Assembly: GCA_000752675.2 (NCBI GenBank)
Contig: LM994624.1
Span: 1 to 64,000, forward strand
DNA length: 64,000 nucleotides
Direction of reading: 5' to 3'
From: a bacterium OL-1
GTDB lineage: Bacteria > Actinomycetota > Coriobacteriia > Coriobacteriales > Atopobiaceae
Under the pieces are notes generated by a model. The model searched no databases. It was not told the DNA's origin and was given only the letters and a program-made list of their open reading frames with translations. Positions within the stretch are counted from its first letter, which is position 1. Each line of letters starts with the position of its first letter. Below, piece after piece: positions 18,806-39,108 of the stretch. Position numbers and translations under genes: made by a program.

Positions 18806-18939
18806 GGCAGTTCTCCTTGCAGGTGGGCCGCGGCGCACGGTGGACGTGCGGTGACGCGGCATGATTAGTCAGCATTGCAAAGTCTACCACCGCAGGGGTG
18901 TTTCGATTCAGGCGGGCACGCCCCACACGCGCGGCGCAC

Positions 18940-18970
18940 ATGAGACAAAGGGACTGTCCCTTTGTCTCAT
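18940..18970. repeat. Perfect 31-bp REP-like palindrome
   Basis: Fifteen-base arms starting ATGAGACAAAGGGAC flank a single central T. The left arm is intergenic; the right arm contains the TGA stop codon (18967-18969) of the minus-strand ABC permease gene. Identical arms occur at 22255-22285. Confidence 0.9.
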
Positions 18971-20856
18971 CGCGCGACGAACTCGTAGCCGTAGCGGGAG
19001 CGCAGCCAGGCAACGGTATGAGGCGTAGCGCCCTCGCTGAGGTAGATGGTCGTGCCAACGGAGTCCTCGTCGGGCGTCGCTGTTGGGTAGAGGCTTATAT
19101 CGGCAAAGTAGGGTTCTCCAACCTCTGCGTCAGAGAGGTCTCTCATGTTTGTCCGGTGCTGGTAGGTGCCCGTTGAATCATAGAATCCGGCTGCCAGCTG
19201 GTACTGCGGCACCACGCACGCCGCACCATGCTCGTCAATGTCCTGGTTGAGCGCATTGCGGAGGGCAGCGTAGTCCGCAGGCAAGATCTCCTCGCTGCGC
19301 CAGGGAGCGTCCTCCTGGGAATCTGGCGCGTATTCCTCATAGGCAATCGTCACAGACGACAGGCCTGCGTCGAGAAGGACCGCGTCAACCTGGGAGCGGA
19401 GCGCCTCCTCGGTTGCAGGGTCGCGGGCGAAATCCATGAGTGCCTGAGCAGCCTTACTGCCAGCGCTTGGCTCGCCGTCACTGTTGAGGGGAATGGCGTA
19501 CTGGCGAGAAATACTGGTACCGTCCTTCATCTGGTACGAAATCATCTCTGAGTAGATGTTTGATGGCACTGGCTCGTCGCCGGAGCAGGGGGAGCCCATC
19601 AGTGTGCTGTGCAGCTGGGTCACGCGCTCCACGCCCTTCTCGTCTTCGAAGGGTACGGAGACGCAGGAGACGGCTGCGCGTTGGACGTCTACGGGGTTGG
19701 GCACGTAGGCTGCAGCATCTGCGGCAGAGCCCACGCAGGCAATGCTCGCCACAAGGGCGACGCCTGTTGTTGCCGCGAGGGCCGGAACGCGTTTGCGCAG
19801 GGCTTTGACGCCGTGGCCCATGATGGCCTCGAGAATCGCAAAGGCCAGCGCCGAGAAGACCACGGGCAAGACGCATGCCAGCTGGGGAGAGACGCCATAG
19901 AGCACCGCGGCCATCCGTGCGGGGATGCCATAGCGGTTCGAAAGCGACCACGAAAGCACAAGCTTCGCGGCAGCAAGCCCAATGAGTATGCTGACCAGCG
20001 CGTTCACCACGGTTCGCACGGTGGCGCTCACGTATGCGTCGCCCGCTCGCTCAAGGTTGCGACGTGAGAAGGCCAGCATCGCCAGCACCGCGCAAGCAAG
20101 GCCCACGATTGCATAGATGACAAGGGCTTGCGTCAGGGCAGCTTCAAGATTGGAAACGGGGAAGGGAAAGGCAGTTGCCCAGGAGGAGACGAGCTGCACA
20201 AGGCGTATGAGCGGGCTTGCACAAAGTTCTGCGACGGACGCCAACGACACCGATGGTGCAACGAGACTGTAGAGGGCCTCCGCGAACTGCCGCGCAGCAA
20301 ACGCGTAGAAGTTGACGAGGAGGTAGCACAGCAGCGCAAAGACCGGCCTGCCCGCAAGCTGCACGCACAGGGCATCGATGCCGCCAAAGGTCACGATGAC
20401 CAGGGCGTGTCCTGCCATCCAGGGAAGAATCGCTGCCGCGTCCCGTCCAAAGCCGAGCGCCGCGGCAAAGACAAGGCCGGCGATGCCCACGGCAACAAGG
20501 AGCGGAATCACGCCGGCAAGGACGGTCGCAAGGAAGATGGACCTTCTCCGCAGCGGAATCATGCCGTAGAGCTGCACCGCCCTGCGGTCGTACATCCAGG
20601 AGAACACGCAGCCAACCGCCGCAAACGAGACGACCGCCGAGAGCACCACGACAGCCATGCCAGACTTCGCAAGCTCATACGCGGGATCTGCGGGCGGTGT
20701 TGGCCCGGCAATTCTCAGCGCCAACGGAACAAGCCAGAACAGCCAGACGATGAGGTAGCCCACCCCAAGGTACAGGCACCGCTGGCAGGTGTCGAGAAAG
20801 AGCCCGAGCGCCGGCGAGGGAGCGCGGCGCCCCTCTTGCATCTCACATGATGCCAT
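18967..20856 (-). CDS. ABC-2-type membrane permease of a YtrA-regulated transporter
   Basis: 629 aa with many hydrophobic segments: about six or seven in the first 280 residues, then a cluster around 300-440, then a long soluble C-terminal region (about 200 residues) predicted to lie outside the membrane. No substrate can be named. The start (MASCEMQ) lies inside the end of the ATPase gene with GGAGG 8 nt upstream, so the two are coupled. With the ATPase and the GntR-type regulator it resembles YtrABC-type efflux or envelope-stress transporters. The stop codon is supplied by a REP-like palindrome. Confidence 0.75.
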   Translation of the reverse strand: MASCEMQEGRRAPSPALGLFLDTCQRCLYLGVGYLIVWLFWLVPLALRIAGPTPPADPAYELAKSGMAVVVLSAVVSFAAVGCVFSWMYDRRAVQLYGMIPLRRRSIFLATVLAGVIPLLVAVGIAGLVFAAALGFGRDAAAILPWMAGHALVIVTFGGIDALCVQLAGRPVFALLCYLLVNFYAFAARQFAEALYSLVAPSVSLASVAELCASPLIRLVQLVSSWATAFPFPVSNLEAALTQALVIYAIVGLACAVLAMLAFSRRNLERAGDAYVSATVRTVVNALVSILIGLAAAKLVLSWSLSNRYGIPARMAAVLYGVSPQLACVLPVVFSALAFAILEAIMGHGVKALRKRVPALAATTGVALVASIACVGSAADAAAYVPNPVDVQRAAVSCVSVPFEDEKGVERVTQLHSTLMGSPCSGDEPVPSNIYSEMISYQMKDGTSISRQYAIPLNSDGEPSAGSKAAQALMDFARDPATEEALRSQVDAVLLDAGLSSVTIAYEEYAPDSQEDAPWRSEEILPADYAALRNALNQDIDEHGAACVVPQYQLAAGFYDSTGTYQHRTNMRDLSDAEVGEPYFADISLYPTATPDEDSVGTTIYLSEGATPHTVAWLRSRYGYEFVAR

Positions 20857-22197: not shown

Positions 22198-22254
22198 GGC
22201 AGAGAAAAACACCGCCACGCTGCCCGCCGGCAGACGGTAGCAACGTGGCGGCGA

Positions 22255-22285
22255 ATGAGACAAAGGGACAGTCCCTTTGTCTCAT
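22255..22285. repeat. Perfect 31-bp REP-like palindrome
   Basis: The same 15-base arms as 18940-18970 with a central A instead of T. The right arm supplies the TGA stop (22282-22284) of the flavoprotein gene. No T-run follows, so it is not an obvious intrinsic terminator. Confidence 0.9.
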
Positions 22286-23694
22286 CGGTCGGCGAGCTTC
22301 TCGCCCATGAGCAGGCCCATCACCGAGGCCATCATGAGGCCGCGGGTCCAGCCGGAGGAGTCGCCCAGGCAGTGGAGGTGCTGGACGTTGGTATCGAAGT
22401 TCTCGTCCATCTGGACGCGGTTGCTGTAGAACTTGACCTCGGGCGCGTAGAGCAACGTCTCGTAGGAGGCAAAGCCCGGAACCACGCGGTCGACGGCCTT
22501 GATGAACTCGATGATCTCGACCATGGGGCGCATGGGCATGGCGGCGGTGATGTCGCCGGCCTCAGCGTCGGGGAGCGTGGGCACCACGTTGGACTGCGCA
22601 AGCTCCTTGGGCCAAGTGCGCTTGCCGTCGAGAATGTCACCAAAGCGCTGCACAAGGATGTGGCCGGCGCCCAGCATGTTGATGAGCTCGCTTACGCGCT
22701 GCGCGTAAGCAATGGGCTGGTTGAAGGGGTGCTTGAAGTTAAGCGTGCAGAGCACCGCCACGTTGGTGTTGGGGCTCTTGCGGTCCTTGTACGAGTGGCC
22801 GTTCACCACTGCCAGGCCACCGTCGTAGTTCTCCTGGCTCACAAAGCCGCCGGGGTTCTGGCAGAAGGTGCGCACCTTGTTCTTATACGGATTGGGATAA
22901 CCGATGAGCTTTGACTCGTAGAGCACATCGTTCACGCGCTCCATGACCTCGTTGCGCACCTCCACGCGAACGCCCACGTCAACGGGGCCTGCCACGTGTC
23001 CAATACCGTGCTCCTCGCACATGGAGTCGAACCAGCTTGCACCACGACGACCCGTGGCGACGATCGTCTCTCCGGCAACGACGCGCGTCTCGCCGTCACG
23101 GTTGCGCACCACGGGGCCGCTGCACACGCCATCCTCGATCACGACCTCCTCGCACTCGGTCTCGAAGAGGATGTTCACGCCGGCGTCAAGCAAGTGCTTC
23201 TCGATGCGCGCGTAGAGCTCCTGGGCCTTCTCGGTGCCAAGATGGCGGATGGGGCAGTCCACGAGCTTGAGGCCCGCGCTAATGGCGCGACGGCGAATCT
23301 CCGCAACCTCGTCGGCGTGGCCAAGGCCCTCGACGTGCGGGTCGGCGCCAAAGTCGAGGTACATCTGGTCAACGCGGTCGATGGTGTCCTGCGCGAACTG
23401 GTGGCCGATGAGCTCGGGCAGGTCGCCGCCCACCTCGCGCGAGAGCGAGAGCTTGCCGTCCGAGAAGGCGCCTGCGCCCGAGAAGCCCGTGGTGATGCGG
23501 CACGGCTGGCAGTTGACGCAGTGTCCCACCTTGGCCTTGGGGCAGCTGCGCTTCTCGACAGGCAGTCCCTTCTCGACGATGGTGATGGAACGCGTGTCTC
23601 CCTTGCCGATAAGACCGAGCGCGGTGAAGATGCCGGCCGGACCAGCGCCAACAATCGCGACGTCCGTGTGGATGGTAGTGGTTGTGTCTGCCAT
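22282..23694 (-). CDS. FAD-dependent oxidoreductase of the COG2509 type
   Basis: 470 aa. N-terminal FAD-binding fold VAIVGAGPAGIFTAL. The cysteine cluster SCPKAKVGHCVNCQPCRI leads into GFSGAGAFSDGKL, the hallmark of this uncharacterised flavoprotein family. The substrate is unknown. The ATG at 23694 follows a GGGG-rich site and sits at the conserved N-terminus. It stands alone between the ABC operon and the trigger-factor-like gene (divergent). Its stop lies inside a REP-like palindrome. Confidence 0.88.
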   Translation of the reverse strand: MADTTTTIHTDVAIVGAGPAGIFTALGLIGKGDTRSITIVEKGLPVEKRSCPKAKVGHCVNCQPCRITTGFSGAGAFSDGKLSLSREVGGDLPELIGHQFAQDTIDRVDQMYLDFGADPHVEGLGHADEVAEIRRRAISAGLKLVDCPIRHLGTEKAQELYARIEKHLLDAGVNILFETECEEVVIEDGVCSGPVVRNRDGETRVVAGETIVATGRRGASWFDSMCEEHGIGHVAGPVDVGVRVEVRNEVMERVNDVLYESKLIGYPNPYKNKVRTFCQNPGGFVSQENYDGGLAVVNGHSYKDRKSPNTNVAVLCTLNFKHPFNQPIAYAQRVSELINMLGAGHILVQRFGDILDGKRTWPKELAQSNVVPTLPDAEAGDITAAMPMRPMVEIIEFIKAVDRVVPGFASYETLLYAPEVKFYSNRVQMDENFDTNVQHLHCLGDSSGWTRGLMMASVMGLLMGEKLADR

Positions 23695-24020: not shown

Positions 24021-24884
24021 ATGACCATCCAGAAGCCCGAGCCGCTTGTGATCGGGAATAAGGCATTCTACACCCTTACCTCGTACGGGCCGGTAGACGT
24101 GGAGGTGCACGTTGTCCGCACCACAGACGAGGAGGTAGAGCTTGCCATCCAGACTCTGGTGCGCGAGGCGGGCGGCACCGAGAAGGACCTCGCAGACCCG
24201 GCGTGGGTCGCAAGCCACTTTGACGGCCTCGAGAACGAGCAGCGCCTGCGCGAGCAGACCCGCGCATACCTCAGCTCGCTGAGCGAGGACTCCGCAGAGG
24301 AGCAGAAGGCCAACGCGTGTCTCGACGCGCTCGCCGAGCGCCTGTGCCAGTCGGTGCCGGCAGCACAGGTGTCGCAGGTGAAAGACGCGCTGTTCCAAGA
24401 CATTGCGCAGCAGATCGCCACAACCGGCCAGCCGGTGGAGGCGGTTCTCGCACAGATGGGCATGCGACCCGACCAGCTGGACTCGATGCTCCAGAGCGAG
24501 GCCGTGAAGGAGGCCGAGCACGAGGCGGCGCTCGACGCCTATGCAAGCGAGAAGAAGATCAAAGTCGACGGGACCGAGCTCCCCCACCTGCTGCAGCTCT
24601 CCCCCACCGATGCGCAGGCGCTCATCGCCCGCGCAAAGGCGGCAGGCCAAATGGACCAACTCATCGATGCCGCCCGCCGCGCCAAGGCCCTCGAGGCCGT
24701 GGTGTCCGAGTGCAACTGCACCTACGTGCAGGAGACCGAGGCCGAGGCCAAGAAGCGCCTGGGCGAGGTGGCGGCTGTCATGCAGCACCGAGAGGAGCTG
24801 GCGCGCAAGGCGGCCAGCGCGGCCGAGAGGGACAGCCCTGCGGGCAGCGACGCGAACGGCAGCTCTGGGCTCAAGCTCGTCTAA
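24021..24884 (+). CDS. Trigger-factor-like protein lacking the ribosome-binding domain
   Basis: 287 aa, largely helical and acidic. The middle (VSQVKDALFQDIAQQIATTG, AQMGMRPDQLDSMLQSEAVK, ALDAYASEKKIKVDG) resembles the C-terminal substrate-binding domain of trigger factor. There is no N-terminal ribosome-docking domain and no clear PPIase domain. The tail is low complexity (SAAERDSPAGSDANGSSG). The ATG follows AGGAGG. The function is inferred as a cytoplasmic holdase-type chaperone. Its last 82 bp are duplicated at 32856-32937. Confidence 0.65.
   Translation: MTIQKPEPLVIGNKAFYTLTSYGPVDVEVHVVRTTDEEVELAIQTLVREAGGTEKDLADPAWVASHFDGLENEQRLREQTRAYLSSLSEDSAEEQKANACLDALAERLCQSVPAAQVSQVKDALFQDIAQQIATTGQPVEAVLAQMGMRPDQLDSMLQSEAVKEAEHEAALDAYASEKKIKVDGTELPHLLQLSPTDAQALIARAKAAGQMDQLIDAARRAKALEAVVSECNCTYVQETEAEAKKRLGEVAAVMQHREELARKAASAAERDSPAGSDANGSSGLKLV
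24803..24884 (+). repeat. Direct repeat copy A: 3' end of the trigger-factor-like gene
   Basis: 82 bp matching 32856-32937 at 78 of 82 positions, including reading frame and stop position. It marks the left border of the PTS island. Confidence 0.92.
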
Positions 24885-24923
24885 GTGAGCATCTTTGTTG
24901 GGCGTTGACGCCAATAGGCGAAT

Positions 24924-24955
24924 GGGATGGCTCTCGACAACCCGAGAGCCATCCC
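24924..24955. terminator. Strong 13-bp stem-loop at the end of the PTS island operon
   Basis: GGGATGGCTCTCG (24924-24936) and its complement (24943-24955) enclose a 6-nt loop. It lies between the convergent trigger-factor-like gene and the aldolase gene. There is no T-run on either strand, so termination is likely but not proven. Confidence 0.6.
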
Positions 24956-25013
24956 CCCTCCGTTCTCATTGCACTCAAGATGAGCCTATAGCAAAGGCAG
25001 GCAGAGCGTCTAC

Positions 25014-25847
25014 CTACTTAGCCTTGCCGGCACTACCGAAGAGCTCCATGAGATGCATGGACTTTTCCTTATAGCCCGCATACATCAAATCAAAGATACC
25101 GTAGATATTGTTACCTTCCATGCCGTTCTCTACGAGCTTGTTATACGAGGCTCGCAGCACGTCATTGGCGATGTTAACCTTGGCGATGCCGAGTCTGCAA
25201 GCCTTCGCCAGGTTCTCATCACCAGAGCCAGAACCGCCGTGAAGCACCAGTGGCACGGGCACCTTCTCGGCTAGCTCCTGGAGCAGGTCGAAGTGGAGTT
25301 CGGGCGTACCCTTGTAGACCCCGTGGGCTGTGCCAATTGCAACTGCCAGACAGTCGACCTTGGTGCGCTCAACGTACTCAATGGCCTCGTCGGGCACCGT
25401 GAAGGCATTGTGGCCGTCGTGCTCGTAGTTGTCACCCATACCAACGTGACCAAGCTCACCCTCTACCTCGACGCCAGCGGCGTGTGCAATTCGCGAAAGT
25501 TCGCAGACTTCGGCAACGTTATCCTCGAATGGACGCTGGGAGCGGTCTACCATGATTGCCCTGAAACCAGCGTGGATGCCCCTCATTGAGTCCTCGAAGC
25601 TGGGGCTGTGGTCCAAAATCATGGTTACGGGCACCGAAGCCTTGTTGGCATAGTCAGTCATCATGCGGCCAAGGTAGTCGATATCCCTGGTCTGGCCGCC
25701 GCCGCACAGCATGATAAGCGGTGACTCGGTCTCCTCAGCGGCGTCGATACACGCCATGACGCTCAGCTGGTTGCATGCGAGGATCGCAGGCACGCCATAA
25801 TGGCCATCCTTTGCCTTGCCAAGAATCTCACTAATATTTACGAGCAT
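25014..25847 (-). CDS. Class II (zinc) ketose-bisphosphate aldolase
   Basis: 277 aa. Fructose/tagatose-bisphosphate aldolase family. Metal and phosphate motifs: LDHS, EVEGELGHVG, AIGTAHGVYKG, LHGGSGS and KVNIANDVLR. It probably cleaves a phosphorylated ketose from the PTS into DHAP and an aldehyde; the true substrate is unknown. Its ATG shares one base with the stop of the iron-dependent dehydrogenase gene (TAATG). Last gene of the island operon. Confidence 0.9.
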   Translation of the reverse strand: MLVNISEILGKAKDGHYGVPAILACNQLSVMACIDAAEETESPLIMLCGGGQTRDIDYLGRMMTDYANKASVPVTMILDHSPSFEDSMRGIHAGFRAIMVDRSQRPFEDNVAEVCELSRIAHAAGVEVEGELGHVGMGDNYEHDGHNAFTVPDEAIEYVERTKVDCLAVAIGTAHGVYKGTPELHFDLLQELAEKVPVPLVLHGGSGSGDENLAKACRLGIAKVNIANDVLRASYNKLVENGMEGNNIYGIFDLMYAGYKEKSMHLMELFGSAGKAK

Positions 25848-27037
25848 TACTCTTCTCCTTCCATGCAGAGCCTAAGAACGTTGATGATGTCCTCCGAATC
25901 GAGCATCGTCAGGTTGCCGCACTTGCCACGAGGATTGCAATCGGCGCCGTCGGCGATGCGCTGGAGGTCCTCCTCACGCACGCCCAACTTGCGACAATCC
26001 GTGGGAATACCGATGAGCCTAAGGAAGATGCGGTACTGGTTTATGCCCTCGAGAATCACGGCCTCGGGATTCATGGGGTCGGGGTCAACGCCCCACGCCT
26101 CGGTGAAGTAGCGATAGAACCTGGGGAGATCCTTCTTGTAGCAGTACTTGAACCAGCCCAGGGTCACACAACCCACGCCCGCACCATGCGCGGAGTCGTA
26201 GAGCCCGCCAATCTCCTGCTGAATACTGTGAACGGCTGAGTCATCCATGCGGCCCACGGCGGTATAACCGTTCATGCCCATTGATGCTGCCCACATGAGG
26301 TTTGCGCGAGCCTCATAGTTGGTGGGGTCCTTGATCGCGATGGGGGCAAAGCGTCTCACAGCGCGGATTGCGGATTCGTTAAGCATGTCGGTGAGGTAGT
26401 TGTCGTGCTCGGACGTGAAGTAGTGCTCTGTGAAGTGGGAAACGGTGTCGATGGCACCGCAGGCCGTCTGGTAGGGAGGCAGTGTGTAGGTAATCTCCGG
26501 GTCCATCACGGCAAACTTGGGACGGTTGACGTCGCGGTAGATGAACTTCTTCTGGTGCGTTTCGAGGTTGGTAATGACCGAGCCGGGCGAAGACTCGGAG
26601 CCGGTTGCCGCACTGGTGAGCACGACACCCACTGGGACAGGCGTGGGGTAGTCCTGTTGGCCGATGTAAAGATCGTTCCACACATCACCGTCGTAGCGCG
26701 CGGCAACTGCTGCGCACTTTGCAGAGTCGATCACGGAGCCGCCGCCCACGGCAAGGATGAAGTCGCACTTCTCGTCACGCACGACCTGGGCGGCCTTGAG
26801 GGCAAGGCCAAGCTTGGGGTTGGGCTCGACGCCACTCACCTCTACATACGCGATACCGGAGGTCTCGAACGAGGACCTAACTGCCGCCAGGAGCTCGTTG
26901 TAGGCAGGATAGGACTCGCCGTAGCCGTGGATGAGCACCTTGGTGCCACCAAACTCGCGCACATACTCGGCGACATGCGCCTGCTGGCCCTTGCCAAAGA
27001 CAAACTTCGTTGGACAGTAATACTCAAAGTTGAGCAT
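25847..27037 (-). CDS. Iron-containing (group III) alcohol dehydrogenase
   Basis: 396 aa. NAD(P) site GGGSVIDSAK; metal-ligand histidines in TVSHFTEHYF and YDSAHGAGVG. Closest in style to butanol dehydrogenase/YqhD-like reductases. In this operon it could reduce an aldehyde produced by the aldolase, regenerating NAD(P)+, which is an inference. It is preceded by the 2-hydroxyacid dehydrogenase gene (18-bp gap). Confidence 0.9.
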   Translation of the reverse strand: MLNFEYYCPTKFVFGKGQQAHVAEYVREFGGTKVLIHGYGESYPAYNELLAAVRSSFETSGIAYVEVSGVEPNPKLGLALKAAQVVRDEKCDFILAVGGGSVIDSAKCAAVAARYDGDVWNDLYIGQQDYPTPVPVGVVLTSAATGSESSPGSVITNLETHQKKFIYRDVNRPKFAVMDPEITYTLPPYQTACGAIDTVSHFTEHYFTSEHDNYLTDMLNESAIRAVRRFAPIAIKDPTNYEARANLMWAASMGMNGYTAVGRMDDSAVHSIQQEIGGLYDSAHGAGVGCVTLGWFKYCYKKDLPRFYRYFTEAWGVDPDPMNPEAVILEGINQYRIFLRLIGIPTDCRKLGVREEDLQRIADGADCNPRGKCGNLTMLDSEDIINVLRLCMEGEE

Positions 27038-27055
27038 GTGTCTTCCTCCTCTTCC

Positions 27056-28129
27056 CTACTCCGCAACTGCCGGGTTCATGAGCAGGCGCTTGTTGCCGGT
27101 CTCCTTGTACTGGATGGCCTTCTTTGCAGCAATAATCGGAGACTTGCGCTGAGCGTCAGCAGTGACGCCACCAAGGTGCCCGGTGAGCACAACGTTGTCG
27201 AGGTCAAGCCACTTGGTATCCGCAGGCAGCGGCTCCTCCTCATGGACGTCAAGCGCAGCAGCGGCAATGCGGTGCTCCTTGAGAGCATCGTAGAGGGCAT
27301 CGTAGTCAACGAGGCCGGCGCGCGCAGTGTTGACAAAGTAGGCGGTGGGCTTCATAAGGGCAATTTCAGCCGCACCAATCATGTGCACGTTGTCAGGGGT
27401 GAGGCGCGCGTGGACCGAGATGATGTCGGCGGTCTTGAAGAGCTCATCCTTCTCGACTTTCTCGACGCCCGTGCCGGCAAGTGCCTCTGTGGGGATGTAG
27501 GGGTCGTAGGTAATCACTTTGACGTCAAAACCGGAGAGCTTCTTGGCAACTAAGCTGCCAATGTGACCGTAGCCAACCAGACCAACGACCTTGCCTTCCA
27601 TGTCGGGCATGTTGTCAGCATTGGCGAGCGGAGCCGAATACTCGCCGTTCCTAATGTTGTAATTGGACTGAGCGATGTTGCGCACGCATGCCAGCATCAT
27701 GCCAACAGTGAAGTCAGAGACGGCGTTGGCGTTGCGCCCCGCAGCGTTGACCACGATGACGCCACGCTTGGTTGCAGCCGCAATGTCCACGTTCTCGATG
27801 CCCCCACGACAGGCGCAGATGGCCTTGAGATTGGGCATCTGATCCATGAGCTTGGCCGAGACCGGACAGAAGGCAACAAAGAGCACGTCCGCATCAAGAT
27901 TGTTCTTCAGAATCTCTGGAATGGCAAATGAGTCTAGGCGCCCCTCCTTGTCTCCCAGCTCATGCTGGTTGTCCTCGACGGCCTTGGCAAGCGTGGCAAA
28001 GTTTTCGTCCTCGGCCAACCAATCGCCGGAGACAACTTCGTCGGCACCCATAAGCTTTGCTGCCGCGACCATGGTGTCCGCCATCTCCTGCATAACGGGA
28101 ACGCCAGCAAGCACACATACTGCCTTCAT
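27056..28129 (-). CDS. D-isomer-specific 2-hydroxyacid dehydrogenase
   Basis: 357 aa, 3-phosphoglycerate dehydrogenase-like catalytic and Rossmann domains without a C-terminal ACT domain. NAD-binding GLVGYGHIGSLVAKKL; catalytic Arg in SVHARLTPDN, Glu/His pair in ALDVHEEEPLP and TGHLGGVT. It acts on a 2-hydroxy- or 2-keto acid (or a sugar acid) not identifiable here. The ATG at 28129 follows GGGAG. A terminator-like hairpin lies upstream, after the IID gene. Confidence 0.88.
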   Translation of the reverse strand: MKAVCVLAGVPVMQEMADTMVAAAKLMGADEVVSGDWLAEDENFATLAKAVEDNQHELGDKEGRLDSFAIPEILKNNLDADVLFVAFCPVSAKLMDQMPNLKAICACRGGIENVDIAAATKRGVIVVNAAGRNANAVSDFTVGMMLACVRNIAQSNYNIRNGEYSAPLANADNMPDMEGKVVGLVGYGHIGSLVAKKLSGFDVKVITYDPYIPTEALAGTGVEKVEKDELFKTADIISVHARLTPDNVHMIGAAEIALMKPTAYFVNTARAGLVDYDALYDALKEHRIAAAALDVHEEEPLPADTKWLDLDNVVLTGHLGGVTADAQRKSPIIAAKKAIQYKETGNKRLLMNPAVAE

Positions 28130-28164
28130 GTTCTCCCTCTCTACTCTTGCGATGAACGGATGCG

Positions 28165-28200
28165 AAAAAGACCGGCCCAACCAGGTTGCGTGAGCCGGCC
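28165..28200 (-). terminator. Intra-operon terminator or attenuator after the PTS IID gene
   Basis: On the minus strand a GC-rich hairpin (CCGGC/GCCGG outer stem, CAAC/GTTG inner stem) is followed by TTTTT. It sits 9 bp after the IID stop and would lower expression of the three downstream enzymes relative to the PTS genes. Confidence 0.6.
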
Positions 28201-28209
28201 AAGAGTGAC

Positions 28210-29013
28210 TTACAGAATGCCGAACAGGGCACCCACAACGCCGATAACGCAGTAGATGATCAGCAAGTTGAGGAACTTTCCACGCTTCTTGAGGTAAAGG
28301 TATGAGAAGAGCACGAGCAGCGCAGGGAGCAGGCCCGGAAGTATGGAATCGAACACACTCTGGAGCAGGATGGCGCCGTCACCTGAGCCAAGGGAGAGCG
28401 TGGTAGAAAGCGCTACATAGTTGGATGTCATGGCACCCATCATGAACATGCCCACGACGCCAGCCGCAGCAGTCACGAGTTTGATGCGGCCACTTTGGAG
28501 AAGGTCCAGAATGGCCGTCTTGCCGGAGCGGTAACCCAACCAATAGGTGAACCAAGATATGACAATGGCCGAAATCCAGATGATCCAGTCGCCGAAGATT
28601 CCGAAGAGAACTCCACTAGTTGCCATGGGGATGAACATGGCTCGGACAATCGGGCGAATGGTACCCCAGTGGAATGAGTCACCAAAGCCGGCAAAGGGGC
28701 CCATTAGCCCGAGTCTCGTATTGGTAATGAGATCGCTGTCGATATCGCCGCCGTTGGCCTTCTCCTCCTCCATGGCCACGGTCATACCATTGATAGCGGC
28801 ACCGTAGTAGGGCTCGGTAATGTAGGTCACCATACTGCGATGCAGGGCCTCCTTGAGACCCTCTTTGTCATCGCCGTAGGCATCGCGGAGGGAGGGAATC
28901 ATCGAGTAAGTAAAGCCAAGGCCGTAGAGGCTCTCGAGGTTCTGGGAGAAGCGCTGGACAAATGCTTGGCGAGCCCAGCCCTTGATGTGCGCACTTCTTG
29001 AAACCTGTCCCAT
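28210..29013 (-). CDS. PTS mannose/fructose/sorbose-family transporter subunit IID
   Basis: 267 aa. Membrane subunit working with IIC. N-terminal WARQAFVQRFSQNLESLYGLG, GLMGPFAGFGDSFHWGTIRP and several C-terminal membrane segments are typical. The ATG at 29013 matches the family start (MGQVSRSAHIK); GGGAG lies 11 nt upstream. Follows IIC by 22 bp. Confidence 0.93.
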   Translation of the reverse strand: MGQVSRSAHIKGWARQAFVQRFSQNLESLYGLGFTYSMIPSLRDAYGDDKEGLKEALHRSMVTYITEPYYGAAINGMTVAMEEEKANGGDIDSDLITNTRLGLMGPFAGFGDSFHWGTIRPIVRAMFIPMATSGVLFGIFGDWIIWISAIVISWFTYWLGYRSGKTAILDLLQSGRIKLVTAAAGVVGMFMMGAMTSNYVALSTTLSLGSGDGAILLQSVFDSILPGLLPALLVLFSYLYLKKRGKFLNLLIIYCVIGVVGALFGIL

Positions 29014-29035
29014 TGTTATCAGGTCTCCCTTCTGG

Positions 29036-29842
29036 TTAGTCGTCGTCGTCTTCGTCAACGGCAGGACTCTGCAACGCCTGGGGCTGCAGCATTCCGCTCC
29101 TTGCGTACTGGATATGTAGCGCGGCGAGAACCACCGCGAAGACCCCCATAAGGACCAACGGAAGATTCGCAACCTTCATGATGAAGAAGCCAAGTGCGAA
29201 GAACGGGATGAGCTTCTCATCGCCAATGATGGAGATAGCCATGGTGAAGCCGAGGGCGGGAAGCATACCGCCGATGACAGACAGCCCATGGGTGAGCCAC
29301 TCGGGCATGGCAGCAAGGAAGCTATTGGCGGCGTCAGCGCCCAGATAGGCAACGATGAAGACGGGAATGAAGCGCACGGCGAGCTGTACGAGTGCTGGGC
29401 CCCAGATGGCATCAAAGGTTATTGCTCTCCAGTTGAGCTCATCGATGTGCTTCTCAGCACGGTGCCACCACACAGCGTTGATGGTGCGACGGGCGTTATC
29501 CATGAAGGCACCTAGAATCCCAAAGGGAACGGCAAGGGCCACGGCGGTATTTATCTCCATGCCCGTCTTGAGGGCGATGGGGATTGCAATGCATGCGGCA
29601 AGCGCTTGGTCAGAGGGCATATTTGCGCCAACAGCAACCGCCGAGAGATAGATGGCAACCGCCGAGAGATAGATGGTCTCGAGTGCCGCGCCAAGCATGA
29701 TACCCGTAGTGAGATCCCCATAGATTGCGCCAAATAGGCCGCCGAGGAACAGCGGGGCTTGGCACATCATGAGAAGTGGGCAATCAAGGTTAACAAGGTA
29801 GTAGATCAGAGCAATCAATGTTGCGTCTAGAACTGGATTCAT
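29036..29842 (-). CDS. PTS mannose/fructose/sorbose-family transporter subunit IIC
   Basis: 268 aa polytopic membrane protein. GALFGAIYGDL-type motif present as GGLFGAIYGDLTTGIMLGA, followed by ETIYLSAVA. The ATG at 29842 follows AAGGAGGGG. It carries an exact in-frame 21-bp tandem duplication (29634-29675) that repeats IYLSAVA, the position where relatives have this motif once. The C-terminus ends in a run of acidic residues. Confidence 0.92.
   Translation of the reverse strand: MNPVLDATLIALIYYLVNLDCPLLMMCQAPLFLGGLFGAIYGDLTTGIMLGAALETIYLSAVAIYLSAVAVGANMPSDQALAACIAIPIALKTGMEINTAVALAVPFGILGAFMDNARRTINAVWWHRAEKHIDELNWRAITFDAIWGPALVQLAVRFIPVFIVAYLGADAANSFLAAMPEWLTHGLSVIGGMLPALGFTMAISIIGDEKLIPFFALGFFIMKVANLPLVLMGVFAVVLAALHIQYARSGMLQPQALQSPAVDEDDDD
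29634..29675. repeat. Exact 21-bp tandem duplication inside the IIC gene
   Basis: Two identical 21-bp units (29634-29654, 29655-29675) add seven residues (IYLSAVA twice) without breaking the frame. It looks like a recent replication-slippage event. Confidence 0.9.
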
Positions 29843-30013
29843 TGTTCCCCTCCTTATTCGTGCGTACTGCAATAACTCAACGAGCATGGTGTCGAACTGC
29901 GCCGACGTGACTACCCCCCTGCCGCAGTTGTTGAATCCCAACTTCCAAAGTGACTTGAAGCGCTGATATCAAGCGAGTAATCATGCAATATTTATTGTTT
30001 CGAAAGTGATTTA

Positions 30014-30028
30014 CTGTTGTTTCAACAG
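30014..30028. promoter_or_regulatory. Candidate DeoR-regulator operator upstream of IIC
   Basis: CTGTTGTTTCAACAG is a perfect 6-3-6 palindrome in the AT-rich 253-bp gap between IIB and IIC. The 9-mer TGTTGTTTC inside it also occurs twice in the promoter region at 31890-31930. Nothing coding is visible in this gap. A second inverted repeat (GCTTCGTAAAT, 30042-30075) follows the IIB stop. Confidence 0.5.
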
Positions 30029-30095
30029 TATCATAAGCAAAGCTTCGTAAATATACTAAGTATGATTTGCGAAGCGATAATTTATAGGTTACTAG

Positions 30096-30602
30096 CTATT
30101 TGCCAGCTGCAAAGTCAGCTTTGAGTTTGCGATAGATGGGAGCGAGATCAGCGGGCGTCTCGTCAGGAACGAGCTGAAAGGTCACCTTGACTCCAGCGTC
30201 GGCAAGCTCCTTGAGCAAATCGAGCTCATGGTCGGATACGTTGATGGAAACATGGGCAATCTTTCGGTCTGGCGCACCTGGCACCTGCCCAACCACGAGC
30301 TCGGGAAACTCGTAGCCGCCGAAGTAGGCTGCGCGTGCCGTTTCGATGTCTTTGAATAGCACGAGCACCCTTCCGGTGCCAAAACGCTTCTCCTTCCAGA
30401 GCTCGAGGGCTCGGGCAAGCGTACGGAAGACAACCTTCTTGTCGCCCGCCGTAAGACGCAGGACGTTCTTCTGCCATTCGTCATTGGCAGTCTCGTCATC
30501 AATGATGTAGATCTTACTGATATTAAGGATGGGGACCCACTTGCTCATGACCTGGCCATGCAAGAGCCTGTAGTCCACACGGTTAGCGATAACGTCTGCC
30601 AT
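30096..30602 (-). CDS. PTS mannose/fructose/sorbose-family subunit IIB
   Basis: 168 aa cytoplasmic phosphocarrier. The phosphorylated His is in VDYRLLHGQV (His15), the standard IIB site; VFRTLARALELW and VGQVPGAPDRKI fit the family. It follows the IIA frame by 2 bp. A 250-bp gap separates it from IIC, so the PTS genes may be two transcription units. Confidence 0.94.
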   Translation of the reverse strand: MADVIANRVDYRLLHGQVMSKWVPILNISKIYIIDDETANDEWQKNVLRLTAGDKKVVFRTLARALELWKEKRFGTGRVLVLFKDIETARAAYFGGYEFPELVVGQVPGAPDRKIAHVSINVSDHELDLLKELADAGVKVTFQLVPDETPADLAPIYRKLKADFAAGK

Positions 30603-30604
30603 AT

Positions 30605-31037
30605 TTACTCATCCTCGTCTTCGTCGTAGGTGCTTGCGTTCAGGTCCTTGATGAGGTCGCCCACGCACACGACCCCTTCCCGAGCAGCGCTTGCGACGTC
30701 GCGCTCTAGGACATCCAGCGGCACTTCGTCGCGCTCGCTTGCCGCAACGATGAGTGCCGGGACATTCATGCCCGTAATTGCGTAGACTTGACGCCCTCTC
30801 GCGATGCTCATCACTGTGTTGAACGGCGTTCCGCCTTGGAGGTCAACCAACATCAGGCAGTTGCCACCGCAGATGTCAATAAAGAGCTCTATCTCTCTCG
30901 TAATCCTCCAGCGTCGCCCCCTCGACAAGAGGGAGCGCCCGCACGTTGTCGAGCTTGCCCAGAATCATCTGGGTGGAGGCAAGGATTCCCTCGCAGGCGG
31001 TTCCATGGGAAACAAGGAGTATGCCCGTGCGTGCCAT
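30605..31037 (-). pseudogene. PTS mannose-family subunit IIA, frameshifted in a GA dinucleotide tract
   Basis: The gene opens at ATG 31037 with MARTGILLVSHGTA (active-site His10) and reads to LEDYER, then shifts. The remainder, EIELFIDICGGN through DLQGGTPFN and ITGMNVP to the end, is in another frame stopping at 30605. The break falls in TCTCTCTC (30892-30899; GAGAGAGA on the coding strand). Adding one GA restores a continuous 144-aa IIA domain with the family residues EREIEL. As read, the product stops shortly after the tract. A sequencing error, a true mutation and phase-variable slippage are all possible. Confidence 0.85.
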
Positions 31038-31048
31038 ATTGCACCCCC

Positions 31049-31810
31049 CTAGAGGAGAAGCCCACCAGTGGTGTCCAGCGTCGTACCGATAATCTGCGAA
31101 GACTTCTGCGAGAGCAAAAAGGCAACGATGTTACCGAGGTCCTCGGGTTTGGTGAACTGTTTGCTGGGGAGCTTGAGACGGCGCGCCTCATTCTCGGGAG
31201 TGGGGTCGTCGTAATGGGTCTTGTTGGTTGCCACATAGCCAGGCATGATGCCGTTGAAGACAATGCCCTCGTCCGCGACCTCCTTGGATATCGAGCGAGT
31301 AAAGCCGATACCTGCAGCCTTGTAGGTGGCGTAGTCGAAGCCTTTCTTGTGACCGGACGAAACCGCGGACTTGGAGATAACGTTGACCGCCCTACCGGAC
31401 TTACCAGCGTCCTCGCAGTGGACGATAAACTCACGGGATGCCATAAACATACTGGTCATGTTGATGGTGTTGGCGCGGTTCCACTCCTCAAGTGTGATAT
31501 CACGCGGAGACTTAAAGGCGATGCCGCCTCCAACGTTGTTCACCAGGCCATCGACCCCACCCCTCTCCGCAATCACGGTCTGGAAGAGCTTGTGCACGGA
31601 CTCCTCACTGGTTGCGTCAAACTGCACCGCAGTAACGTCAGAGCCCGTTGCCTCAGCAAGTTCAACTGCGTAGCTCTTGGCGAGATCACCGTTGTAGTCG
31701 GCGATGACAACCGAGACACCCTCCTGCGCGAGCACACGGCTGATTCCTCCGCCTATGCCCTGGGCACCACCGGTGACGATGATAACCTTCTTCTCAAGTC
31801 CAAGATCCAT
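31049..31810 (-). CDS. Short-chain dehydrogenase/reductase
   Basis: 253 aa. NAD(P) motif VTGGAQGIGGGI, acidic DY after strand 2 (favouring NAD), NNVGGG, catalytic Ser in KSAVSSG and YATYK (Tyr-x-x-x-Lys), IMPGYVATN. It probably oxidises or reduces the sugar or polyol taken in by the PTS, comparable to sorbitol-6-phosphate or gluconate dehydrogenases. First gene of the island operon; ATG 31810 follows AGGAGAGGGG. Confidence 0.9.
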   Translation of the reverse strand: MDLGLEKKVIIVTGGAQGIGGGISRVLAQEGVSVVIADYNGDLAKSYAVELAEATGSDVTAVQFDATSEESVHKLFQTVIAERGGVDGLVNNVGGGIAFKSPRDITLEEWNRANTINMTSMFMASREFIVHCEDAGKSGRAVNVISKSAVSSGHKKGFDYATYKAAGIGFTRSISKEVADEGIVFNGIMPGYVATNKTHYDDPTPENEARRLKLPSKQFTKPEDLGNIVAFLLSQKSSQIIGTTLDTTGGLLL

Positions 31811-31889
31811 GCCCCTCTCCTGTCCTCTCCGCACTCTGGCTAAGCTGCCGTCCAAGAGCAACATGCACTTTGTTTACAACAACTGTTGC

Positions 31890-31932
31890 TGTTGTTTCGC
31901 TAAATATTACGGCGAAGTTGTTGTTGTTTCAA
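31890..31932 (-). promoter_or_regulatory. Promoter and operator of the PTS island operon
   Basis: On the minus strand TTGAAA (31927-31932) and TAATAT (31904-31909) are spaced by exactly 17 bp. The 9-mer TGTTGTTTC occurs at 31922-31930 (overlapping the -35) and at 31890-31898 (at the start site), and again at 30015-30023. This fits repression by the divergent DeoR protein. The 242-bp region 31811-32052 also contains the regulator's own promoter. Confidence 0.65.
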
Positions 31933-32052
31933 TAGTTACAGATGAGGTTTTCAAGAATGTGAGGTGTAAATTGCCGTAAGCGGTGAATACTAGCTGTTGA
32001 AAGGACAATGTGAGGGCATCTTGCTCTCGAAGACTGTAAGGGGGCTCGTTCC

Positions 32053-32817
32053 ATGGAGATGGCCGAGCGGCGCAACGCCATCACAGAGTTAATCAACCGT
32101 AAGGGAAGTGTCTCGTTCGCCCAAATTAAGAAGGCCTTCCCCGACGTCTCAGACATGACACTGCGCACAGATCTCAAAAGCCTTGACCAAGATCGCAAAA
32201 TCATCCGCATACATGGCGGTGCACGGTCGGTCGAGTACGTCGTGGGTGCCGACGGGTTGCAGGTGAACCCCGAGAGAAGGATGCGTAACGCTGCCTCCAA
32301 GGAGGTTGTGGCCAAGAAGGCCATTGACCTGATAAGGCCAAACACCACCATTTTCATCGACTCTGGAACTACCTGCGAGGAGCTTTGTACCAATATCGCG
32401 GGGATGCCGCTACAGATTTTTACTTGCAGCCTTTCCAACGCAATTGCGCTGGCACGCTCCCCCAAGTCGAATGTCTTCGTCATTGGTGGGCGAATGAGTC
32501 CCTTCACGCTCAACCTCAATGGCAGCCACACGCTTACCATGCTGCAGCAGATTAGCTTTGACCAGGCGTTTCTCGGCGTCACTGCCTATCAGTCTGAGGC
32601 GGGCTTTACCTGCGGATCGGATGAGGAGGCCTCCATCAAGCGGCAGGTTGCCAAAAACGCAGGCCAGGTGATTGCCCTCATGGACTCGAGCAAGGTCGAC
32701 AAGCGCACCACGTTCAAGGCGGTTGACCTTGACGATATTGACCTGGTAGTGGGGGATGACGAGATGCCCGACGAATTCAAGCTCGAGTGTTCGCGTACGG
32801 GGGTTGAGGTAATCTAG
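32053..32817 (+). CDS. DeoR/GlpR-family sugar-phosphate-responsive repressor
   Basis: 254 aa. N-terminal DeoR helix-turn-helix (ERRNAITELINRKGSVSFAQ, DMTLRTDLKSLD) and C-terminal sugar-phosphate sensor domain (IFIDSGTTCEEL, VIGGRMS, VIALMDSSKV). Divergent from the SDR-PTS operon and presumably its regulator. Stop at 32817, followed within 40 bp by the repeat border of the island. Confidence 0.93.
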   Translation: MEMAERRNAITELINRKGSVSFAQIKKAFPDVSDMTLRTDLKSLDQDRKIIRIHGGARSVEYVVGADGLQVNPERRMRNAASKEVVAKKAIDLIRPNTTIFIDSGTTCEELCTNIAGMPLQIFTCSLSNAIALARSPKSNVFVIGGRMSPFTLNLNGSHTLTMLQQISFDQAFLGVTAYQSEAGFTCGSDEEASIKRQVAKNAGQVIALMDSSKVDKRTTFKAVDLDDIDLVVGDDEMPDEFKLECSRTGVEVI

Positions 32818-32837
32818 ACGTACACGAGGGAGATGCC

Positions 32838-32854
32838 AATTCGTCGGACGAATT
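32838..32854. repeat. 17-bp perfect palindrome at the right edge of the island
   Basis: AATTCGTCGGACGAATT ends one base before the duplicated gene end at 32856. It may be a weak terminator for the DeoR gene or mark the recombination border. Confidence 0.6.
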
Positions 32855-32855
32855 T

Positions 32856-32937
32856 GCGCAAGGCGGCCAGCGCGGCCGAGAAGGACAGCCCTGCGGGCAG
32901 CGACGCGAACGGCAGCTCTGGGCTCAAACTCGTGTAG
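32856..32937 (+). pseudogene. Duplicated 3' fragment of the trigger-factor-like gene (direct repeat copy B)
   Basis: 82 bp matching 24803-24884 at 78 of 82 positions. It still encodes the same 26-residue tail (KAASAAEKDSPAGSDANG region) and an in-frame TAG, but lacks the rest of the gene. A terminator lies 30 bp downstream, so this is probably the original downstream border of the trigger-factor-like gene. Confidence 0.88.
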
Positions 32938-32966: not shown

Positions 32967-33002
32967 AACGGGGAGGCCGACTGACGTCGACCTCCCCGTT
33001 TT
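32967..33002 (+). terminator. Rho-independent terminator between the repeat fragment and rpmE
   Basis: AACGGGGAGG (32967-32976) and CCTCCCCGTT form a stem followed by TTTT-C-TT on the plus strand. It ends plus-strand transcription coming from the DeoR gene or, originally, the trigger-factor-like gene. Confidence 0.8.
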
Positions 33003-33021: not shown

Positions 33022-33456
33022 CTACTCGGCTGCGGGAGCCTCGGCAGCGGCCTCAGCCTCGGGCTCTGCGGGAGCCTCAGCGGCCTTCGCGGCAGCCTTG
33101 GCAGCCTCTGCCTCGGCCTTCTTGGCGTACTCAGCAGCACGCTTGGCCTTCTCGGCAGCCTTGGCCTCCTTGGCGGCCCTGCGAGCAGCCTCGAGCTCCG
33201 CGGCCTTCGCGGCCTTGGCAGCCTTGGCGGCCTTCTCGGCATCGAGCCTGGCCTGCGCGGCGCCGCCGAACTTGTTGGCGAAGCGCTGGACGCGGCCGCC
33301 GGTGTCGACGAGCTTCTGCTGGCCGGTGTAGAACGGGTGGCACTTGTCGCAGAGGTCGATGACGAGCTCGGGCTTGGTGGAACGCGTCTTGAACGTGTTC
33401 CCGCAGGTGCAGCGGACGGTGCACTCCACGTAGTTAGGATGAATTCCTTGCTTCAT
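33022..33456 (-). CDS. rpmE: Ribosomal protein bL31 with an Ala/Lys-rich extension
   Basis: 144 aa. The first 70 residues are a zinc-type bL31: CTCGNTF and [13 protein letters not shown] supply four Cys. The remaining 75 residues are an Ala/Lys/Glu repeat-rich tail ([20 protein letters not shown] and similar), much longer than the usual 66-80-aa protein. The ATG 33456 follows AAGGAG. A leader hairpin is at 33476-33496. Confidence 0.94.
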
Positions 33457-33496: not shown

Positions 33497-33788
33497 AGGG
33501 GTGGTGATGTCTTGGCGCGGATTGCTCCGTCCAAGACGGTCAAGCTCTCGGAGTATAACAAATTGCACGTCGACGGTGTGTGGAGAATCGCTGACCACGC
33601 GCAGCGCGCGGCCGCGGCACCGGGCTTCTCGCCTTCCCGTGCGCGGATAATAACTCTTTTTCTTGATCTGGTCCGATATTTACCCAGGTAGTTCGCATCG
33701 ATTTAAAGAGATGGAGCTAAACTCCGCAGCGAAGGGACCAGCGAGCGGGGGCGATACCTCCGAGTCGAGATTCCTCCACGGCGCCCCT

Positions 33789-33880
33789 CCAAAAGTGAAC
33801 ACGATTTCAATTCGCGGTCCACCGCTGCAACGTTTCCCCAGGGGCCGCGGGGCGCTCATTGAAAACGTGTTCACTTTTGG
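33789..33880. repeat. Palindromic intergenic repeat, copy 1 (92 bp)
   Basis: 23-nt terminal arms (CCAAAAGTGAACACGATTTC at the left) match with one mismatch. The interior is GC-rich and only weakly similar to the other three copies (51141, 51525, 53047). Confidence 0.85.
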
Positions 33881-34095
33881 GCGAGGGGAAAGGGACGGGA
33901 GCAGACGGCGAGGGGCAAGGACGAGCGAGTGCAGACGGCGAGGGGTGCGCCGCAGCGCGCCGGGGGGCACCGCGCGCCAGGGCAATCGCGAGCAGACCGC
34001 CCCCGTGTGTGTTCTAATGACATCTGAGATCAAACGTACCGCGGGCCGAGACGTGCCCGCCGCCGCCCCAGCAGCTCTTGCCAGGAAGGAAGCCT

Positions 34096-34869
34096 ATGTT
34101 TCTCGCGATTGACGTTGGCAACACCCAGACCACGCTCGGCCTCTTTGACGAGGACGGCACTGTGGCGCACGGCTGGCGCATGGCGACGAGCCACACGGAC
34201 ACCTCGGACATGATCGACGCCCGCCTGCACGGGTACTTCAACAAGGACGGTCTGGACCAGGCACGCGTCACTGCCGCGGGCATCGCGTGCGTGGTGCCTG
34301 TGCTCACCCGCGCATGGTACAAGTGCCTGCTCGACCGCACGGGCACAGAGCCGCTGGTCGTGACTCCCCAGACGGACTCCGGCATGCGCATCGACATGCC
34401 CGATCCCACCCAGGTTGGCGCCGACCGCATCGCCAACGCCGTGGCCGCACGCCTCGCCTACGGCGCGCCGGTCATCGTGGTGGACTTTGGAACGGCAACC
34501 AACATCGACGTTGTCGACGCCGCAGGTTCCTACCGTGGCGGTGCCATCTCGCCGGGCCTCATGCTCTCGGCAGCGGCGCTCTTCTCGCGCGCGGCCAAGC
34601 TCTCCAGCGTGCCCATCGAGGCTCCCGCCCACGCACTGGGCGAGACAACCGAGGCCGCCGTGCAATCGGGCATAGTCGTTGGCGCGGCCGCGCAAGCAGA
34701 AGGCCTGGTTGCCCGCATCAAGCGCGAGCTGGGCATACCAAATGCGCCCGTGGTGGGAACCGGTGGCCTTGCACGCACCGTGAGCGCCGCAACCGACCTT
34801 TTCTCGGCCGTCGACCCTGACCTCACGCTGCGTGGCATCCGCGAGATATGGCTCCACCAGCAGCACTAG
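34096..34869 (+). CDS. coaX: Type III pantothenate kinase
   Basis: 257 aa. Phosphorylates pantothenate in CoA synthesis. Actin-like ATPase fold: LAIDVGNTQTTLGLF, PTQVGADRIANAVAA, VVDFGTATNIDVVD and GGAISPGLMLSAAALF are CoaX motifs. The ATG 34096 follows AGGAAGG. The convergent neighbour is a BirA-like protein; coaX and birA are adjacent or fused in several bacteria. Confidence 0.95.
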   Translation: MFLAIDVGNTQTTLGLFDEDGTVAHGWRMATSHTDTSDMIDARLHGYFNKDGLDQARVTAAGIACVVPVLTRAWYKCLLDRTGTEPLVVTPQTDSGMRIDMPDPTQVGADRIANAVAARLAYGAPVIVVDFGTATNIDVVDAAGSYRGGAISPGLMLSAAALFSRAAKLSSVPIEAPAHALGETTEAAVQSGIVVGAAAQAEGLVARIKRELGIPNAPVVGTGGLARTVSAATDLFSAVDPDLTLRGIREIWLHQQH

Positions 34870-34907
34870 CGACCGCCAGCAGCCCACGTCGGGGCGAGAC
34901 CCCGCCT

Positions 34908-37189: not shown

Positions 37190-37933
37190 CTAGAAGTCGA
37201 ACGCCTTTGCAATGTCGCAGGCGCACACCAGGTTTGCGGCACCGTCCTGCGGTGTGGGCTGCTTGTTCACAATCACGAGGTCATCGCCCTGGAAGTACTG
37301 CACAAGGCCAGCCGCGGGATACACCACGAGCGAGGTCCCGCCCACAATGAGCATGTCGCAGGACTGGATGTCCTCGGCCGCGCCGATCAGGGTCTTCTCA
37401 TCCAGCGACTCCCCATAGAGCACAACGTCGGGCTTGATGCGGCCGCCGCACTCCTCGCAATGTGGCACACCTGTGGTGCCCATGATCCACTCGGCCGAGT
37501 ACACGTGCCCGCAGCGCTGACACACGTTGCGGTGCACCGAGCCGTGCAGCTCGTAGACGCGCTTGGAGCCCGCCGCCTGGTGCAGGCCGTCGATGTTCTG
37601 CGTGACCACGGCGGTAAGCTTGCCCTCGCGCTCGAGCTCGGCGAGCTTGTAGTGCGCCTGGTTGGGCTTGGCTCCCAGGGCAATCATCCGCGTGCGGTAG
37701 AAATCGAAGAACTCCTCGGTGTGCGTGAGATAGAACTCGTGGCTCAGCATCTCCTCGGGCGGATACTTGAACTTCTGATGGTACAGGCCGTCCTCACTCC
37801 GGAAGTCGGGGATGCCGCTCGCCGTTGAGACCCCCGCCCCGCCAAAGAACACCACGCGCTTGGCACACCTGACCCTCTCGGCCAGCTCTTGGGCTGCCTC
37901 GCGCGCATCAGAGATCACCTTTGCACCCGACAT
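37190..37933 (-). CDS. NAD-dependent protein deacylase (Sir2 family)
   Basis: 247 aa. GAGVSTASGIPDFRSEDGLY is the NAD-binding signature; TQNIDGLHQAAGS has the catalytic His region; the zinc module has CQRCG and CEECGG. It removes acyl groups from protein lysines. AGGGAG precedes the ATG. Divergent from the patatin-like gene at 38000. Confidence 0.95.
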   Translation of the reverse strand: MSGAKVISDAREAAQELAERVRCAKRVVFFGGAGVSTASGIPDFRSEDGLYHQKFKYPPEEMLSHEFYLTHTEEFFDFYRTRMIALGAKPNQAHYKLAELEREGKLTAVVTQNIDGLHQAAGSKRVYELHGSVHRNVCQRCGHVYSAEWIMGTTGVPHCEECGGRIKPDVVLYGESLDEKTLIGAAEDIQSCDMLIVGGTSLVVYPAAGLVQYFQGDDLVIVNKQPTPQDGAANLVCACDIAKAFDF

Positions 37934-37999
37934 GGCGTACTCCCTCGACGAATGGGTAGAAGAACAGTTCCGATGCTAGCACCGAGAGGAGTGGTTTCC

Positions 38000-39016
38000 A
38001 TGACCGACCAGCCGCAACGCGAGGATGATACTGCCGAGCACGTGGCCGAGAAGCCCCAGGCCACCCAGCCCGAGGGCGGGATCGCGGATGTGCGCGAGAC
38101 GACGCCGGAGCCAGCTGCCCCTCTCGCACCCCTCGAGAACAACGTGCACAACTGCGCCCTGGTGATCGAGGGTGGCGCCATGCGTGCAAGCTACGTCTCG
38201 GGCCTGGTGAACGTTCTTCTCGAGCAGGGCATCTACTTTGACTACGTCTGTGGCATCTCGGCAGGCTCGACCGTCGCCACCAACTACGTCTCGCGCGACA
38301 TGGTGCGCACCAAGCGCTCGTTCGTCGACTTTGCGGCAAACCCCCAGATGGGCGGGTTAAAGTCTTTCCTCAACCGTCGCGGCTTCTTCAACGCAGACTA
38401 CGACTACCTGGGCTGCATCGAGGATGGCTCGATGCCGTTTGACTGGCAGACGTTCCAGGCCAACCCAGCGCGCGTGCGCATCCAGGCGTTCCAGCGCGAC
38501 ACCGGGCGCACCGTTGTGTGGGGACGCGACCACATGCAGACGCTCGAGGACCTCATGGCGTGCGTGCGGGCAAGCTCCACCATGCCGGGCATCATGAGGC
38601 CCATCGAGGTCGACGGCCAGGTCATGCTCGACGGGTCGCTGGGCGCAGGTGCTGGCCTTCCCAACCACATCGCCGAGGACGACGGCTTCGAGAAGCTCTT
38701 TGTCATCACGTCTCGCCCCGCGGGGTACCGTAAGGGCGAGCTCTCGGCCGTCAGGCGCCGCGGCGTCATCCACATGATGAAGGACCACCCCTACGCGAGA
38801 AACGCCATGCTCACACGGCCCGAGCGCTACAACGAGGAGCTTGCGCACCTGGAGGAGCTGGAGAAGTCCGGCCGCGCGCTGGTGGTGAGGCCGCGCGAGA
38901 TGCCTGTCTCGCGCACCACACGCGACGTCAAGGAGCTTGAGCACGCCTACCTGCTTGGGCACGAGCAGGGCATTGCCGAGCTGCCGCGCTGGCGCGAGTT
39001 CCTGTTTGGCGAGTAG
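38000..39016 (+). CDS. Patatin-like phospholipase, first of a tandem pair
   Basis: 338 aa. An acidic, Pro-rich N-terminal tail (about 45 residues) precedes the patatin domain: oxyanion region EGGAMRASYVSG, nucleophile CGISAGS, and catalytic Asp in MLDGSLGAGAG (DGS instead of DGG/A). The ATG 38000 has AGGAG 9 nt upstream. The substrate is unknown. The C-terminal part matches the next gene (RPAGYRK, GHEQ), indicating an old duplication. Confidence 0.9.
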   Translation: MTDQPQREDDTAEHVAEKPQATQPEGGIADVRETTPEPAAPLAPLENNVHNCALVIEGGAMRASYVSGLVNVLLEQGIYFDYVCGISAGSTVATNYVSRDMVRTKRSFVDFAANPQMGGLKSFLNRRGFFNADYDYLGCIEDGSMPFDWQTFQANPARVRIQAFQRDTGRTVVWGRDHMQTLEDLMACVRASSTMPGIMRPIEVDGQVMLDGSLGAGAGLPNHIAEDDGFEKLFVITSRPAGYRKGELSAVRRRGVIHMMKDHPYARNAMLTRPERYNEELAHLEELEKSGRALVVRPREMPVSRTTRDVKELEHAYLLGHEQGIAELPRWREFLFGE

Positions 39017-39102
39017 GGCGTAGCGCTGGGGTCCCAGCAGGCAGCGCGGGGTTCTCGCCCTGCTGGGGCGGGCTTCTCGCCCGACTGCCTTTGGCCTCCC
39101 CC

Positions 39103-39108
39103 TATAAT
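39103..39108 (+). promoter_or_regulatory. Candidate -10 box for the second patatin-like gene
   Basis: TATAAT in an otherwise GC-rich 124-bp gap, 32 bp before the ATG. No good -35. An AGACG/CGTCT inverted repeat (39111-39126) lies at the expected transcription start. Confidence 0.45.

Follow-up and report, generated by a model that had tools for sequence, protein, structure and literature searches.

Behind a trigger-factor-like gene of a gut-type actinobacterium of the genus Tractidigestivibacter, an 8-kb block with a sorbose/mannose-type PTS is, judged from alignment with related genomes, an insertion, bounded by two copies of an 82-bp gene end; on balance, we regard it as a horizontally acquired sugar-use island that one crossover within the gene tail, paired with one illegitimate join, would have brought in. 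The block was analysed in a window of 64,000 nucleotides on contig C8 (232 kb) of the host's draft genome (2.46 Mb in 10 contigs). Same-genus comparisons were made with seven genomes other than that of the host, and family-wide comparisons with 140 genomes of the family. Positions in the window are given in Table 1.

Table 1. Features of the inserted block and its borders, in window coordinates
Feature	Position	Strand	Remarks
Trigger-factor-like (Trigger_C) gene, target gene	24021..24884	+	287 aa; 3' end is copy A; Pfam Trigger_C, E 1.3e-8
Copy A of the 82-bp gene end	24803..24884	+	in frame, stop TAA; runs on into the island
Strong hairpin, island left end	24924..24955		separates target gene from operon; fold energy -28.5 kcal/mol (z -5.3); probable terminator
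Class II ketose-bisphosphate aldolase	25014..25847	-	PF01116, E 6e-77
Iron-containing alcohol dehydrogenase (Fe-ADH)	25847..27037	-	PF00465, E 1e-40
D-isomer 2-hydroxyacid dehydrogenase	27056..28129	-	PF02826, E 4.5e-58
PTS mannose/fructose/sorbose family IID	28210..29013	-	PF03613, E 6e-78
PTS sorbose-type IIC	29036..29842	-	PF03609, E 5e-64
Operator-like inverted repeat ACTGTTG-TTT-CAACAGT (ACTGTTGTTTCAACAGT)	30013..30029		upstream of IIC
PTS sorbose-type IIB	30096..30602	-	PF03830, E 7e-37
PTS mannose-type IIA, split over two frames	30605..31038	-	C-terminal part PF03610, E 1e-6
Short-chain dehydrogenase (SDR)	31049..31813	-	PF13561, E 8e-44
DeoR-family regulator (AgaR-like), cargo right end	32053..32817	+	PF00455, E 5e-43
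Perfect 17-bp palindrome AATTCGTCGGACGAATT (AATTCGTC-G-GACGAATT), right junction	32838..32854		one base before copy B
Copy B of the 82-bp gene end	32856..32937	+	continuous with native terminator; right border of insertion
Native terminator hairpin, rpmE side	32967..33002		kept in every same-genus relative compared
rpmE (ribosomal protein L31, Ala/Lys-rich tail), core gene on the right flank	33022..33456	-	

The anatomy that an earlier note had read from this DNA was borne out: the 82-bp direct repeat, with 78 of 82 bases identical and frame and stop kept in both copies; the perfect palindrome ending one base before copy B; the terminator behind copy B, which is a real hairpin (z -3.5 on the plus and -6.0 on the minus strand, fold against shuffles), native and conserved in relatives; the gene content of PTS, SDR, three dehydrogenase or aldolase genes and DeoR regulator, recovered with domain profiles; and the lack of a visible integrase, as the same profiles detected no integrase, transposase, excisionase, IS or other mobility gene between the repeats.

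An orthologue of the target gene lies in the same context in all seven same-genus genomes. Trigger_C is the sole trigger-factor domain in the host's gene, and its score of 43 bits is far below the 180-bit cut-off of the tig equivalog TIGR00115, so that 'trigger-factor-like' is the right name. In six of the seven genomes the tail occurs once, and the terminator and rpmE come immediately after the gene, the arrangement that the earlier note had expected of island-free relatives; the tig-like protein is 94-97% identical in G001, G002, G003, G005 and G006, and 83% in G004. It is the empty gap in these six genomes that marks the 8-kb block as an insertion. They also lend support to the earlier reading of the locus as an insertion that recreated the gene end, or as recombination with a donor bearing its own copy, and are at odds with a family of relatives that all carry the island with the same repeat. 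A repeat common elsewhere without an island, the other finding that would have spoken against that reading, was likewise ruled out, since the repeat matches just at A and B within the whole genome.

Copies A and B (BLAST self-match, E 1.8e-31) encode the C-terminal ends ...GLKLV TAA and ...GLKLV TAG, respectively, and their differences are conservative: R and K are exchanged once, two third-base changes are silent, and the stop codons are TAA and TAG. As B continues into the native terminator and A into the island, B represents the recipient's side and A the island's side. The repeat bounds the block like the direct repeats of an att site, with the target gene left intact; in the alignment with the empty sites the anchoring segment is duplicated and one border is homologous, the other non-homologous, as in one-sided integration. 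Copy A agrees with the tails of the relatives at only 71-74 of 82-88 positions, and its stop and downstream sequence are unlike those of every relative. Since the tail of no relative is as close to either copy as the two copies are to one another, the duplication should be recent or stem from a conspecific donor, which points to an origin in the host lineage or in a very near donor.

That the copies are young relative to the divergence of the species would also be expected if the gene tail had first been duplicated in tandem, by slippage or unequal crossover, and the island had entered between the copies later, with a product that would look identical. We consider this order of events very unlikely: it would need two events to have struck one point independently, a tandem tail without the island was seen in none of the relatives compared, and the left border of B coincides with the island border. 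Barely credible is an assembly artefact in which unrelated contigs were joined through the repeat; repeats can mislead assemblers and the genome is a 10-contig draft, but 82 bp are short relative to reads, the copies differ at four sites, and both flanks stand in the syntenic order of the relatives on a contig of the above length.

Of the nine genes between the repeats, eight lie on the minus strand and the DeoR/AgaR-like regulator, whose best NCBIfam match is AgaR, below cut-off, on the plus strand. The G+C content of the island is 56.0%, against 64.5% and 65.4% in the flanks. Like sorbose/mannose-family PTS operons with a DeoR/AgaR regulator, the block combines IIA, IIB, IIC, IID, an aldolase and a DeoR regulator; unlike the usual operons, it has Fe-ADH, 2-hydroxyacid dehydrogenase and SDR added and a frameshifted IIA. 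The nearest homologues of Fe-ADH are only 43-44% identical (samples of relatives and of the phylum). In IIA, the N-terminal frame (MARTGILLVSHG...), with the VSHG motif, runs to a stop, and the rest lies in another frame, the frameshift falling near 30900-30925 within a short GA-repeat tract. The gene is possibly a pseudogene, or its split possibly a product of short-tract slippage or of a sequencing error; given the split, the island may be decaying. The inverted repeat upstream of IIC recurs in related form, with 3 mismatches, between the SDR and DeoR genes at 31920-31936 (3 hits in the search against 0.04 expected); it lies in two promoter regions and is likely an operator of the DeoR/AgaR-like regulator. 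Within the IIC gene itself, a 21-bp stretch is perfectly duplicated in tandem, in frame, at 29634-29675 (IYLSAVAIYLSAVA).

Five integrase-type matches were found in the host genome, none of them on the contig bearing the island, and the genes bounded by the repeat are metabolic or regulatory, with no recombinase such as would mark an ICE, IME, prophage or satellite. These results bear on the reading of the block as the remnant of a site-specific integrative element, in which attB would be the 3' end of the tig-like gene, attP would have carried a replacement end, copies A and B would be attL and attR, and the integrase would have been lost or have acted in trans. Exactly such anatomy is seen in e14, which displaces the 3' 163 bp of icd and supplies a replacement end with conservative changes (PMC6379469); as there, the insert restores the gene end, the displaced native end is kept at the far border, and the differences between the copies are conservative, and in addition the palindrome adjoins copy B. 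Unlike e14, however, the block holds no integrase or phage/ICE gene and its cargo is wholly metabolic; the search of family genomes gave no further occurrence of repeat or palindrome, inspection by eye of relatives' loci revealed no integrase beside the gene, and the islands found in the same gap in G007 and G031 are without such a repeat, so that the site is not reused through a shared core sequence as by a mobile element. An integrase origin is therefore rather unlikely. It predicts the same topology as acquisition by a single crossover, and its ranking below that reading rests on the missing mobility gene and on the other islands in the gap without the repeat.

The palindrome was also considered as an island-end marker or attachment site in its own right and rejected, as at up to 1 mismatch it was found nowhere else in the host genome or the 139 other family genomes, and its RNA fold is no better than that of shuffles (z -0.16).

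For acquisition by a single crossover, we infer a course in which DNA from a donor, conspecific or very closely related, with the island already behind its own copy of the gene, would have entered the cell. One RecA-type homologous crossover within the gene tail would then have been combined with one illegitimate join at the DeoR end, adjoining the palindrome, where the DeoR end, the palindrome and gene position -82 follow one another. The fragment could have closed on itself, a single crossover then integrating the recircularised DNA; alternatively, it could have stayed linear and been anchored on one side only. After the crossover, the island would be preceded by an intact gene end, A, and followed by the end that belonged to the recipient, B, which would preserve both the target gene and the rpmE terminator. 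The host genome has a ComEC homologue, weak evidence alone for DNA uptake, and Ku is absent from it.

Precedents for such a course come from E. coli, where most events scored as candidates for homology-facilitated illegitimate recombination (HFIR) were gene-end duplications, 56 of 60 clones screened gave the duplication-diagnostic PCR product, and 14 sequenced duplications of 109-950 bp were explained by a shortened circle integrating through a single crossover (PMC3240628); for T6SS arrays of Vibrio, a comparable one-sided mechanism has been put forward (PMC5361080). As in these products, the insert described here lies between two copies of a 3' gene end, one of its junctions is homologous and the other illegitimate, and a specialised enzyme is not needed; unlike in the E. 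coli experiment, the duplication is 82 bp long and the event natural, with a donor that was not found. Direct repeats are found on either side of about 10% of the small variable segments in the bacterial species that were studied (PMC2884548). Against acquisition by a single crossover, 82 bp is short for RecA-dependent integration, the repeat runs from inside the gene to the stop codon as an integrase att site also would, and the case for the illegitimate join is indirect, the donor allele having been sought in the genus, the family, the phylum sample and a plasmid collection without being found. Highly improbable is a further scheme, by which the island would excise as a circle between the 82-bp copies and re-enter neighbours at their tig-like gene through RecA alone; if it were true, integrase-free sugar islands bracketed by their own repeats would have the gap as their docking site within the family.

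In the genus, family and phylum sample, the best homologues of the island are 42-49% identical, and the plasmid collection yielded no match. No close homologue of the whole island was found in the 140 family genomes, in which all aldolase homologues are at most 49% identical. A similar gene set at about 31-50% identity is present in G018 (L124), with IIA not detected; as neither the tig-like gene nor rpmE was found at that locus, the pathway is present in the family, but the island itself is not.

Different cargo occupies the tig-like/rpmE gap in other genomes. The seventh same-genus genome, G007, and G031, of another genus, share a different island of about 7.3 kb, with a galactitol-type PTS, two aldolase-type proteins and a GntR-type regulator (read from translations by eye), and are 85.7% identical to each other through tig and island alike. 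G012 holds a further, DeoR-associated island, with the DeoR-like gene at the rpmE end, and inserts of 2.3-2.4 kb were found in G156, G146 and G083. In three other genomes a single large gene lies in the gap (L129 1730-3994, L130 1677-4095 and L135 1365-3795); by eye, two of these resemble multi-span membrane proteins and one an acyltransferase. None of the other islands tested in the gap, including those of G007 and G031, has a duplicated gene end; in G031 (L060), the end of the tig-like gene is replaced by island sequence, giving a protein with an unrelated tail.

With cargo that differs among G000, G007/G031 and G012, and six empty sites in the genus, the gap behaves as a hotspot; as far as the genomes compared can tell, it is an integrase-free acquisition site for different sugar islands across species, and new here. 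Identity between G031 and the window is 85-90% across the left flank, tig and rpmE but mostly 72-82% beyond, a pattern which suggests that the island was exchanged together with its flanks by homologous recombination. Many hotspots of horizontal transfer are without integrases, with recombination at the flanking core genes (Oliveira et al. 2017, PMC5635113). The gap resembles them in its variable cargo between two conserved genes, the lack of mobility genes, lineage-specific occupancy and the signs of exchange with flanks; it differs in that species and genera rather than strains are compared, and in that a gene end was duplicated at one of the insertions.

The event is of a known kind, a conceptually familiar acquisition of a gene island, and the instance is new; to judge from a literature search on the genus name, this instance and the tig-like/rpmE hotspot in the family appear, tentatively, to be undescribed. 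Together with its empty sites, the locus is a natural snapshot of a gut actinobacterium gaining sugar-use genes without a recognisable mobile element, in one interval where related species swap different PTS islands. Should strain-level excision or repeated one-sided integration prove true, it would offer a tractable case for how integrase-free hotspots fill.

The surroundings of the gap are variable as well. An insertion of about 10.4 kb, in a region of about 56% G+C, lies behind coaX in G006, G002 and G004 (L055, L057, L059) and is absent from the host genome, its site corresponding to window positions 34863-34900, a second variable site nearby. Between rpmE and coaX, G007 has a further 2.7-3.2 kb or so of inserted sequence (L058 10325-13517; window 33595-34087). 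No gene-end repeats were found at either of these nearby insertions. At 37889-40031, the window holds two adjacent patatin-like genes (by eye), tandem paralogues of about 73% identity over 320 bp. A 42-bp near-palindromic sequence occurs twice (93%), on both strands, at 18931-18979 and 22244-22287, and its copies bracket an ABC-transporter/regulator cluster.
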